DNA of 64,000 nucleotides, taken from the NCBI RefSeq assembly GCF_003590795.1, contig NZ_QYUL01000002.1:1543001-1607000 (forward strand), read 5' to 3'. The stretch comes from Azospirillum cavernae. GTDB lineage: Bacteria > Pseudomonadota > Alphaproteobacteria > Azospirillales > Azospirillaceae. Numbering within the stretch: the first letter of the stretch is position 1; every line of letters starts with the position of its first letter. The notes beneath the pieces are model-generated. The model had not been told where the DNA came from and made no database searches. It saw nothing but the letters and a program-made list of their open reading frames with translations. Positions 57,553-62,793 of this stretch are shown here, piece after piece. A program made the translations under genes and the position numbers.

Positions 57553-57813
57553 ATGAAGTTTGTCGCCATGGCTTTTCTGTCTCTTGGTGTGTTGTGCGCG
57601 GGCGGACTCGCCCAGGCGGACGACAACGCCAAATGGGTCGCCCAGTGCCAGAAGGACAATTCCGACGCCAAGGTGTCGCCGGACGTCGTCACCAAATACT
57701 GCACCTGCATGAACAACAAGATGAGCGACAGCGAAACCCGCACCATCACCGAATGGGAAAAGGCCAACCCTCAGAGCCGCAAGGCTTGCGAAAAGGAAGC
57801 GGGTTGGATGTGA
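57553..57813 (+). CDS. small secreted cysteine-containing protein
   Basis: An 86-residue protein. A signal peptide (MKFVAMAFLSLGVLCAGGLAQADD) with cleavage likely after AQA is followed by a charged mature domain of about 64 residues. Its four cysteines (QCQKDN, YCTCMN, KACEKE) could form two disulfides in the periplasm. A GGGGAGA ribosome site supports the ATG. I do not recognise the family. A bidirectional terminator follows. Confidence 0.75.
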   Translation: MKFVAMAFLSLGVLCAGGLAQADDNAKWVAQCQKDNSDAKVSPDVVTKYCTCMNNKMSDSETRTITEWEKANPQSRKACEKEAGWM

Positions 57814-57832
57814 TGTGAGGGTGAAGCAAGAG

Positions 57833-57864
57833 AAAAAGGCCCGGTGATCGCTCCGGGCCTTTTT
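57833..57864. terminator. bidirectional rho-independent terminator
   Basis: AAAAAGGCCCGG and CCGGGCCTTTTT form a 12-bp stem with an 8-base loop. The A-run before and T-run after serve both the secreted-protein gene (+) and the DUF2269 gene (-), which converge here. Confidence 0.93.
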
Positions 57865-57875
57865 GTTTCTGAGAA

Positions 57876-58346
57876 TCACAAGATGGGGCGTTGAATCATC
57901 AGGTGAATGATGACCAAAACAGCGCCAAAAGCGGGCCAGCCTAGAACAAACCACCACCTTGCGCATCGCTGGTAGGTTGGGGGAAGGGGATGACGGCTGA
58001 GAGCGGCTTCGGTCGCCAGATCACGCATGCGAATCTGGAGCCAAACGACGGGAAGCCAACAGACGCCAGCCAGCACGTACAACGCGACGGAGGCCGTCAA
58101 CCAGCGGTCACTCCAGCCATAGCCGACCATCCAGGCCAGGATCACGCCGCTGATCGGCTGGACGATCACCGCCGGGGTGGTGAACAGCCAATCCGCCCAG
58201 ACCACATTGTGGGCAACCGCCGAGATCACGGCGGCGTTTTGGCTGCGATGGGCCATCCACATTTGGAACGCGGTGCCAAGGCCAGTGCCAAAAATCACCA
58301 TGGCGCTGACAATGTGCAGATATTTTAGCCAGAGATAGCTGTCCAT
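57876..58346 (-). CDS. DUF2269 family membrane protein
   Basis: A 156-residue protein with four predicted membrane helices. The start MDSYLWLKYLHIVSAMVIFG with a helix-1 histidine is typical of DUF2269. Members often accompany SDR/DoxX-like genes, as here. The ATG at 58346 lies 21 bases inside the preceding gene, so the two overlap and are probably translationally coupled. Function is unknown; the conserved histidines suggest haem or metal binding, but this is inference. A terminator lies directly downstream. Confidence 0.82.
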   Translation of the reverse strand: MDSYLWLKYLHIVSAMVIFGTGLGTAFQMWMAHRSQNAAVISAVAHNVVWADWLFTTPAVIVQPISGVILAWMVGYGWSDRWLTASVALYVLAGVCWLPVVWLQIRMRDLATEAALSRHPLPPTYQRCARWWFVLGWPAFGAVLVIIHLMIQRPIL

Positions 58347-59641
58347 GGCGCTCTCCATCGCGACAGGGCGGCCACGACCAACGTGGCGGCGATCAGGGGA
58401 ATGTTTTTCAGCAAGGGACCAAAGGGGTGCAGCCAAGCGTCGGGAGTCAGCAGGCTGGCAAGTCCGGTGTAGAGAAGGATCGTCAGCGCTTGCAGGATCG
58501 TCGCGCCGGTTCGCCATCGGCGGGGGATCATGGCAACGCCCAGCAGCATGTCCCAAACAGCGCCGCCAATCAGAAGCGTTTGGGCGGCTGTGCCGGTGAG
58601 GTTGTTTGCCGCCAGAAGATCCATTCCAATTCGATAGGACCACAGCGACGTCAATCCGGTGCCGATCCACAGGATGGACAGGGTCGAGGACAGCAGCGGC
58701 AGCAACCAGAACATTGAGGCGGCGGTGCGATCAGCGATGCTGGCTGTGTTTCGGGCCAACCCTTCCGAAAGGCTGCGCGGTGATCCGCCTGTCGTGTTGC
58801 GCAGGAGCGTGGGATCCGCGTCGGCTCCCTGCCGCATCATGGCGAGGCTGTCGGGGTTGATGAAAGGCGAACCGCATTTGCCCCCGATGGCCGCCAGACC
58901 GCCAAGGATCCATCGGGGGCATGGCGCAGAGGCAAGCGGGCGTTGACCCAACCAGTTTCCCAGCGCGTCGATGTACCCGTCCAGGCTTACGCAGTCAGGA
59001 CCCACCAGGGGGATGATGGGCGGCAGGGGATGAGGCCGCTCCAAGCAGGTGAGCACAGCGTTGGCGACGTCATCGACATGGATCGGACGCACAAACCCGC
59101 CGCCAACGCGTGGTCGCACCGGAAGGCTGGCGAGCGCGGAAAAGAATGCGGCGCTGGCCCCGTTTGGACCATAAACCAGCGAGGGACGCAGGACAGTCCA
59201 TCCGTCCAAACGATCATCCAAGAGGGCCGCGTCGCCCAGCGCCTTGCTGCGCAAAAACGCGGTCGGCGCCGTTTCCTCCGCGCCAAGGGCGGATATGTGG
59301 ATCAGGCGCCGCACGCCAACCGCCTTGGCTTGCGCGGCCAGGGTTCTCGGCAAATGATGATGCGCCTGTTCAAGCTCTGGGCCGCACAGCACGCCTGCGG
59401 CGCACACAACGCCATCAAGGTCGTCCAGAAGATCCCGCCAATCGTTGGAAGGGATCGGCGCGGCGTTTTGATCGCGTGGCGGGGACATGGGCGGCAGGCG
59501 GCGGATGTCCCGCCCTGGAAAGCGGTCATGGAGCGGCTGTGTGTGACGCCCAATCAGACGGACGTCATGGCCATGACGTTCCAGGTCGTCGACAACGGCG
59601 GAGCCGATGAAGCCGGATGCGCCAATGACACCGATGCGCAT
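58325..59641 (-). CDS. NAD(P)-binding SDR protein with C-terminal DoxX-like membrane domain
   Basis: A 438-residue fusion. The N-terminal 290 residues form an atypical short-chain dehydrogenase fold (MRIGVIGASGFIGSAVVDDL) similar to NDUFA9/complex-I assembly type epimerases; there is a FVRPIHVDDVANAV block. The C-terminal part from about 310 has four membrane helices of the DoxX-like type. This fusion is known and usually lies next to DUF2269. AGGAG nine bases before the ATG sets the start. A GbsR-type regulator is encoded upstream in the same direction and probably controls it. Confidence 0.85.
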   Translation of the reverse strand: MRIGVIGASGFIGSAVVDDLERHGHDVRLIGRHTQPLHDRFPGRDIRRLPPMSPPRDQNAAPIPSNDWRDLLDDLDGVVCAAGVLCGPELEQAHHHLPRTLAAQAKAVGVRRLIHISALGAEETAPTAFLRSKALGDAALLDDRLDGWTVLRPSLVYGPNGASAAFFSALASLPVRPRVGGGFVRPIHVDDVANAVLTCLERPHPLPPIIPLVGPDCVSLDGYIDALGNWLGQRPLASAPCPRWILGGLAAIGGKCGSPFINPDSLAMMRQGADADPTLLRNTTGGSPRSLSEGLARNTASIADRTAASMFWLLPLLSSTLSILWIGTGLTSLWSYRIGMDLLAANNLTGTAAQTLLIGGAVWDMLLGVAMIPRRWRTGATILQALTILLYTGLASLLTPDAWLHPFGPLLKNIPLIAATLVVAALSRWRAPWTAISG

Positions 59642-59646
59642 TGAGG

Positions 59647-59760
59647 TCACTCCTGTGCGATGTGAACGGTCGTTTGAGCGCACGCCACGCGAAGCGGCGA
59701 CAGACCCCAACCGAAGAAAATCAGGGCGGCGGTCAACGCCAGGCAGGACACCCAAATCAA
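59647..59760 (-). CDS. possible 37-residue membrane peptide upstream of the SDR-DoxX gene
   Basis: A short frame with a TTG start reads MIWVSCLALTAALIFFGWGL and ends TVHIAQE, with its TGA five bases before the SDR ATG. It predicts one membrane helix. A ribosome site for it is lacking, so the evidence is the hydrophobic content and the tight spacing only. The rest of the 239-base gap before the regulator is non-coding. Confidence 0.3.
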   Translation of the reverse strand: MIWVSCLALTAALIFFGWGLSPLRVACAQTTVHIAQE

Positions 59761-59880
59761 CGAGAGTGTTCACGATGCAGGTGTGCCGGAGTTTCCGTTA
59801 CGTCGGTTGTTTCTGTAAGGAAAGAAATTTAAAAGCGCGCTCAATGTTCCAAGCATGGCGCAACCCTGGTCTCGCGACGG

Positions 59881-60405
59881 TCAGCGCTTGAGGAAACCGG
59901 CGATTTTGGCCCCGACATGAACGATGTTTTGCAACGTCGAGCGCGGCAACCGCTTCATCTGATCGTACCAACTGGTCAGATCCTCAATGAACACCAGCAT
60001 CTCGCTCAACCGCGCCTTGACCTCCGGGTCGGTGGCGCTGTCGCCCTCCGATTCCAACACGCAGGCGCGCAACATGGTCAACGCTGGGTCAATCTCGCGC
60101 TTTTTCCGCTCTTCGGCGATCAGCAGAAGGATGCTCCATGGGTCGGTTTCGGCCCGAAAATGGTCGCGCCGATCACCCATGACATGGCTGACTGTGACCA
60201 AGCCATAGCTTTGCAGCTCACGGATGCTTGTGCTGACGTTGGACCGGGCAATTGACAAGACATCCACGATTTCGTCCGCAGGAAGCGGGCGGGGGGAGAG
60301 GTAGAGCAAAGCGTGGATCTGTGCGACGGACCGATTGACGCCCCAGCGCGTTCCCATTTCTCCCCAATGAAGGATGAAGCGTTCCATGGTGGGGGTGAGA
60401 AGCAT
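59881..60405 (-). CDS. GbsR/MarR-type transcriptional regulator
   Basis: A 174-residue winged-helix repressor of the GbsR family. It starts MLLTPTMERFILHWGEMGTRWGVNRSVAQ-like, with helix-turn-helix residues ADEIVDVLSIARSNVSTSIRELQSYGLV and wing MGDRRDHF. A helical C-terminal half follows, which in relatives mediates dimerisation and ligand sensing. A perfect 42-bp palindrome abuts its start codon and is the likely autoregulatory operator. The SDR-DoxX/DUF2269 genes downstream in the same direction are probable targets. The signal is unknown. Confidence 0.88.
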   Translation of the reverse strand: MLLTPTMERFILHWGEMGTRWGVNRSVAQIHALLYLSPRPLPADEIVDVLSIARSNVSTSIRELQSYGLVTVSHVMGDRRDHFRAETDPWSILLLIAEERKKREIDPALTMLRACVLESEGDSATDPEVKARLSEMLVFIEDLTSWYDQMKRLPRSTLQNIVHVGAKIAGFLKR

Positions 60406-60447
60406 GATATTCTCTAATTTCTGTCTAGACAGAAATTAGAGAATATC
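60406..60447. promoter_or_regulatory. perfect 42-bp palindrome abutting the GbsR-type gene start
   Basis: The half-site GATATTCTCTAATTTCTGTC is followed by T and then by its exact mirror, with AGACAGAAATTAGAG continuing the other side. The centre is TCTAGA at 60424-60429. Its last base is next to the start codon at 60405. It must be the operator of the regulator or a 5'-end hairpin; the AT-rich character suits a promoter overlap. Confidence 0.85.
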
Positions 60448-60510
60448 GCCGTCGCCGTCAAGCGGGATGTTCGCGTGGTTCGGTCGCGTCCAGCCTGCGC
60501 GCCGCTGGGA

Positions 60511-60978
60511 TCAGCGAAATTTCGGACGCCGCCCGGCCTTCAGCGCCTGGACCGCTTGATCCAGCGTTTGCAGGAATTTGGATTTGTCCTGTTGGCTCAT
60601 CGGGGCGTTGCCGCCGCTGACCACGCCCATGTCGCGCAAATCCTGCATCAGGGCGCGGGTGGCGAGCGCCGAGCCGATGCTGTCCGGGGTGAAGGGTCGC
60701 CCGGTCGGGCCGATCACCACGGCGTCGCGCTTGACGCAGCGGTCGGCCAGTTGGATGTCGGCGGTGACGACGATGTCGGTGGCCCCGGCGTGTTCGGCGA
60801 TCCAATTGTCGGCGGCGTCGAACCCGTCGCTGACCACGACCAGTTCGGACAGGCATTCCGTCGGCAGCCGCAGCGGGCTGTTGGCGACGATCCACACCTT
60901 GCAGCCGGTGCGCCCGGCCACCTTGTAGATTTCCGCCTTCACCGGGCAGGCGTCGGCGTCCACATAAATCTCGACCAA
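60511..60978 (-). CDS. YaiI/YqxD family protein (UPF0178)
   Basis: A 155-residue protein with the family hallmark IYVDADACPVKAEIYKVA at the N-terminus and DIVVTADIQLADRCV. The fold is PIN/NYN-like, suggesting a metal-dependent nuclease, although family activity is not well established. A TTG start at 60978 (GGAG six bases upstream) gives MVEIYVDADACPVK; no better ATG exists. It stands alone. Confidence 0.88.
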   Translation of the reverse strand: MVEIYVDADACPVKAEIYKVAGRTGCKVWIVANSPLRLPTECLSELVVVSDGFDAADNWIAEHAGATDIVVTADIQLADRCVKRDAVVIGPTGRPFTPDSIGSALATRALMQDLRDMGVVSGGNAPMSQQDKSKFLQTLDQAVQALKAGRRPKFR

Positions 60979-61116
60979 CGGTGCTCCCCTTGGGTCTGGT
61001 TGGGTTTCAACATGGTTCCGTCAAGCGCCCTTATGCGCTAAAACCGGAGCCTAGCGAAGCGGCGCCGCGTGGCGACGCTTTTTTCTCTTCCCCGGTGCAC
61101 AAGGTCGGAGTGGCGC

Positions 61117-62793
<1,677 letters not shown>

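Follow-up and report, generated by a model that had tools for sequence, protein, structure and literature searches.

Gene arrangement and the palindrome at the regulator start

The window, i.e. the whole 64-kb stretch of DNA that was analysed, carries on its minus strand a gene (59881–60405) for a 174-aa regulator of GbsR/CydE type. The protein matches Pfam MarR_2 (5e-07; 30.2 bits against a cut-off of 27), which places it in the MarR superfamily, as well as NCBIfam CudC over residues 21–156 (E 4.5e-13, below cut-off) and the PDB entry 1ku9 (MJ223; 5.6e-12), and these matches together identify it as a GbsR-type member, as the initial annotation had it. It does not qualify as the GbsR/CudC equivalog, which stands for choline/betaine control, since the CudC match (49.4 bits) falls far short of the cut-off of 218 and the downstream genes are not betaine genes. 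Those genes, also on the minus strand, are a NAD-epimerase/DoxX_3 fusion (58325–59641; Epimerase 3.2e-10, NAD_binding_10 1.1e-11, DoxX_3 2e-22), a likely target, for which the ATG start at 59641 is our choice and Pfam was run on 58325–59644, and an ORF (57876–58670) with a DUF2269 membrane protein (3e-57, residues 114–262) whose true start is probably internal. The regulator gene thus lacks the cytochrome bd neighbours of a CydE-type gene; the relative L007 (44% identity) does adjoin a cydA-like gene (NCBIfam match below cut-off), so that the window protein looks like a CydE relative with other targets. Among named organisms, Azospirillum griseum has the closest relative of this protein (84% identity). 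The distribution of the regulator is patchy: close orthologues (at least 84%) are present in three of the 45 genomes from its genus, one of them the window's own, along with one 44% relative. Upstream, an ORF on the same strand (60511–60978) stops 63 nt before the palindrome described next.

Directly abutting the regulator's ATG lies a 42-bp palindrome (60406–60447, not assigned to a strand), which a repeat search resolved into two 21-nt arms (60406–60426 and 60427–60447), 100% complementary and with zero loop. The symmetry about 60426/60427 and the contact with the regulator start, both claimed at the outset, are thereby borne out. A perfect palindrome of this length is expected by chance in 64 kb with a frequency of ~1.5e-8 (64000 × 4^-21). 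With up to three mismatches allowed, the window contains one copy of its inner 20-mer (shuffles expect 0), and in the 6.46-Mb genome the 18-bp inner core has a single mismatch-free copy plus one site with three mismatches. From the repeat search and the conservation described below, we read the palindrome as the operator of the adjacent regulator.

A conserved core of four half-sites

We aligned 85 upstream regions, the window's included, drawn from 80 relatives, those kept out of 538 confirmed, and seven further genome places; L062 (which came without upstream sequence), L003 (whose genome is shared with L010) and the pattern loci L008 and L009 were left out before counting. Looking for the same palindrome near related genes, as the initial annotation had proposed, we found the inner palindrome ATTTCTGT-N4-ACAGAAAT at 12 or more of 16 positions upstream of 84 of the 85 family members (window counted) and at 14 or more in 73. 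The one miss, L036, scores 11/16 and is excluded from all counts of 84 below. Block-shuffled upstream regions averaged 0.7 of 85 at the threshold of 12 and gave none at 14, and coding stretches gave 0 of 85. The family records with the operator are titled Proteobacteria, Planctomycetes, Verrucomicrobia and Acidobacteria, and of 172 plasmid records that carry a relative, the two inspected have operator scores of 16 and 14. Accepting either A or T at ±5 gave seven further matches of at least 12 across 82 genomes of the family, one being the L011 region, to whose operator region that of L094 is identical. A separate search of plasmid DNA returned ten records, all 60–80% identical and none covering 80% of the query.

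Because the inner columns served to place the site, conservation there is partly built in. The outer TTC (−17 to −15) and GAA (+15 to +17), which were not used for placing the centre, nonetheless carry 0.55–1.34 bits. With these conserved besides the inner pair, the operator core extends to 34 bp (60410–60443, no strand) with four half-sites, two inner (±3 to ±10) and two outer (±15 to ±17), offsets being counted from the palindrome centre at 60426/60427. On each side the inner and outer half-sites form 9-bp tandem copies (TTCxxTAATTTCTGT), mirrored across the centre. That the outer ones pair C with G specifically at ±15 favours base reading over a mere A+T flank. A need for a purine-rich ribosome site may additionally constrain the right outer arm, but this leaves the left arm unexplained. 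The outer arms covary weakly (128 of 192 pairs versus 121.7 in shuffles, with 119 of 2000 shuffles as high).

Free variation of the palindrome among relatives, named beforehand as part of what would overturn the initial reading, applies to the central and outermost positions, which do vary, but not to the core, which is conserved. Support is given to an operator-like element of a GbsR-type regulator that exceeds one dimer site, and the conserved outer half-sites make plausible the earlier suggestion of two dimers. The patchy occurrence of the regulator within its genus could also suit the footprint of a mobile element or a chance palindrome; we give this next to no credence, as the palindrome is single-copy in the genome and the core is conserved together with its spacing to promoter and gene.

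The predicted promoter overlaps the palindrome

Exact TTGAC occurs in 64 of the 84 loci between −46 and −32, with 57 of these falling in the range −37 to −34 left of the centre, whereas base-shuffled segments gave a mean of 2.4 of 84 and a maximum of 8. In the window this motif belongs to a predicted −35 box, TTGACG (60456–60461, minus strand), and from its position and the conserved columns −12 to −7 we predict a −10 element, TAATTT (60433–60438, minus strand), in the left arm at a 17-nt spacer. TAATTT is a poor match as a −10 hexamer, and a sigma-70 consensus scan of 57700–61200 listed no promoter, that with the predicted −10 included. Placement of TTGAC, by putting the −10 within the left arm, indicates that the transcript probably starts near the palindrome centre, at ~60426. 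The predicted leader is then ~21 nt long with a weak purine-rich AGAG, which lends no support to the leaderless transcript first envisaged.

Such a start bears on the possibility, also raised initially, that the whole palindrome is transcribed and its stem hides the regulator's ribosome site and start codon. Read-through from ORF 60511–60978, 63 nt upstream, could yield an RNA with both arms, and this folds at −27.6 kcal/mol versus a shuffle mean of −9.3. However, transcripts begun at the predicted start near the centre would contain only one arm (−5.1 kcal/mol), making a full hairpin over the ribosome site unlikely. The relatives point the same way: the conserved arm stops at +17, but in 83 of the 84 loci the matched start is separated from the centre by at least 19 bases (15 in L016; 52 nt in L010 and 36 nt in L002; possibly not the true start in L017, L056 and L080), and of the four outermost pairs (18–21) none or one is kept in 55 of 84 loci and all four in the window only. 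A covered start codon is thus no general trait of the family, and no conserved stem over the start region was found among the 84 loci. Since, in addition, the base change at ±5 tracks a protein residue (see below), we regard an RNA hairpin as quite improbable.

A perfect stem 63 nt past the stop of ORF 60511–60978 might alternatively act as an intrinsic terminator, or other barrier to transcription, for that upstream same-strand gene. The stem is, however, A+T-rich and without a T run, it is absent from the six sites returned by a terminator scan, and its core accompanies this family of regulators in several phyla, so we deem this role highly unlikely.

Site and protein change together at ±5

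The ±5 pair is T:A (CTG form) in 71 of 84 loci, A:T (CAG form) in eight and something else in five. It is paired in 59 of 64 non-redundant loci, a value reached by 0 of 2000 shuffles (mean 47.6). Residue 59 of the regulator is Met in five of the eight CAG loci versus one of the 71 CTG loci (Fisher 1.4e-5, ignoring kinship), and adjoins the conserved RSNVS stretch, which we take to be the recognition helix. By mutual information with the ±5 change, residue 59 ranks third, after columns 89 and 120, both outside the RSNVS stretch. Binding by the adjacent regulator being something we infer, the site might in principle be the operator of another, unrelated repressor. We consider that very unlikely given this residue–base association, the co-occurrence of the site with this family of regulators in different phyla and on two plasmids, and a published footprint of the CydE protein on the same motif.

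The 34-bp site, with a ±5 pair changing along with one protein residue, offers a candidate operator code for a little-studied GbsR branch, one that points to epimerase-DoxX, DUF2269, DUF4166 and DCC1-like genes as targets.

A candidate second operator behind the regulator gene

Between the regulator and the epimerase-DoxX gene we identified a candidate second operator, ATTTCTTTCC/TTACAGAAAC (59809–59828, minus strand; 14/16 if either A or T is accepted at ±5). Searching from 60 bases before to 160 after the regulator stop, with the same tolerance at ±5, gave a second site of at least 13/16 in 33 of 86 loci (window included and L062 retained in this count), compared with 0 of 86 in both coding and shuffled controls. 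At 12 or more there were 35 loci (coding 1, shuffled 2) and at 10 or more 49 (16 and 36 respectively). The window's second site has a low matrix score of 19.7, the highest shuffled value being 12.3 (40 loci), and with ~53 one-mismatch sites in the genome it is unremarkable taken alone. A second, weaker operator would probably let the same regulator repress the epimerase-DoxX/DUF2269 genes. Among 66 downstream ORFs of relatives, the matches comprised 31 Epimerase, 19 DUF1731, 10 DoxX_3, 7 DUF4166, 6 DCC1-like, 4 DUF2071 and 2 DUF2269.

Among the matches listed for the window's genome, the core (either A or T accepted at ±5) has one exact place, the window's, and a wide regulon was rejected on this ground. 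Sites with at most one mismatch number 54 versus 17 for the reversed pattern, an excess perhaps due to codon bias. One 18-mer a single mismatch from the core, TTTCAGTATTTTCTGATA, occurs at C1:1896047-1896064 and C4:542523-542540 in opposite orientations and is perhaps part of a repeated element.

Some further features were noted around these sites. By eye, L064, L083 and others have an A/T tract, AAAAAAATTT or TTTTTTTT, ~19–28 bases left of the second-site centre, and in the window the segment from the second operator to the epimerase ATG (59641–59773, minus strand) could encode a hydrophobic peptide of ~37 aa with a TTG start. In A. griseum (L010) the second operator is kept downstream of 3525 (centre +588); the three ORFs tested downstream had no Pfam match, and a search for epimerase-DoxX at this locus gave no hit. 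L051, L053 and L065 have more operator-like sites 0.9–1.6 kb past the regulator start (centres +953, +1611 and +943 respectively), and at these loci the regulon may reach other genes.

Perfection of the palindrome is peculiar to the window

No other locus of the 84 has more than 16 of 21 positions paired, and their longest unbroken run from the centre is 10. Multiplying the pairing rates observed in the other 83 loci, with each column taken as independent, yields 1.5e-6; even for a conserved operator, then, the perfection is peculiar to the window locus. Symmetry at non-conserved positions amounts to 201 versus 179.8 in shuffles (sd 10.3; reached by 52 of 2000) and, with the window removed, to 192 versus 177.0 (165 of 2000). 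As this is only slightly above shuffles, homogenisation of the arms as a general process was rejected, and template switching is a hypothesis for the window locus only. In yeast, according to the available part of the source, template switching at imperfect inverted repeats extends arm identity (PMC3820800). Correction of a quasipalindrome by such switching, selection for tight binding, or chance could each have made this copy perfect; the first is a guess, as the nearest relatives (84% identity) are too distant to polarise the arms. The copy provides a natural case for how operators drift to perfect symmetry.

A model for autoregulation

We conclude that the palindrome is very probably the autoregulatory operator of the adjacent GbsR/CydE-type repressor. 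Computed support comes from its symmetry, its conservation, the covariation at ±5, its position relative to the conserved −35 and its match to the published CydE footprint; from the operator model built on these we infer protein binding, repression, stoichiometry, start site and ligand control. One regulator dimer would occupy the two inner half-sites, and the two outer ones would probably be taken by another dimer or by additional subunits. Bound regulator would then cover the −10 region and the predicted start of its own promoter and so block transcription until a ligand relieves repression, and through the weaker operator behind its gene the same protein would act on the epimerase-DoxX/DUF2269 genes.

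A dual element is also conceivable, in which a DNA operator of four half-sites for two cooperating dimers is combined with a read-through RNA stem that shuts off translation of the regulator, template switching having made this copy perfect. If true, the 9-bp tandem-repeat design with four half-sites would be common to the branch across phyla, and the RNA function would have arisen in one lineage through template switching. We judge this combination improbable. With its core conserved in relatives across phyla, the palindrome is better seen as a clear-cut case of something already known, the self-operator of a GbsR/CydE-type repressor, than as a new RNA switch. The well-conserved extended 34-bp layout was not found in the literature searched by GbsR/CydE-type regulators and by motif sequence.

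Comparison with characterized GbsR-type systems

The closest parallel is CydE of Alishewanella sp. WH16-1, a GbsR-type repressor of cydAB whose gene heads the operon and is autorepressed (Xia et al. 2018, PMC6096048; here and below as described in the accessible portions of the reports). CydE was footprinted on TATTTCAGAAATTTCTGAAAGTTCA upstream of cydE, the footprint being 25 bp long and confined to the inner palindrome (PMC6096048). This sequence scores 13/16 against our motif, with mismatches at ±3 and +10, and L095, L097 and L099 carry a 20-mer identical to it. The window palindrome shares the half-sites (TTTCWG) and spacing of the footprinted site, and likewise lies upstream of the regulator gene, but differs in having CTG rather than CAG and in being longer and perfect. 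The second CydE site, as far as the available text goes, is apparently unrelated in sequence. Unlike CydE, the window regulator neighbours epimerase-DoxX and DUF2269 genes and not cydAB. The same contrast in neighbours holds for CioR of Chromobacterium violaceum, a member of the GbsR subfamily that represses a cytochrome bd operon, the one containing its own gene, and binds the promoter there (PMC11837568, partial text). In a grouping of GbsR proteins, 34 of 179 were near cyd genes (PMC6207618, likewise in part).

GbsR of B. subtilis belongs to the same MarR subgroup and, in the portion of the source available, is described as autoregulated and as recognizing an A/T-rich inverted repeat with a 4-bp spacer (PMC7396694), a spacing shared by the window operator. 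At gbsAB and opuB, however, its site is downstream of the transcription start and an elongation roadblock responsive to choline was inferred (PMC7396694), whereas the window operator overlaps the predicted promoter and its regulator matches CudC far below cut-off. The mode of repression at the window locus could thus differ from that of B. subtilis GbsR, with the inverted repeat and its 4-bp spacer common to both.
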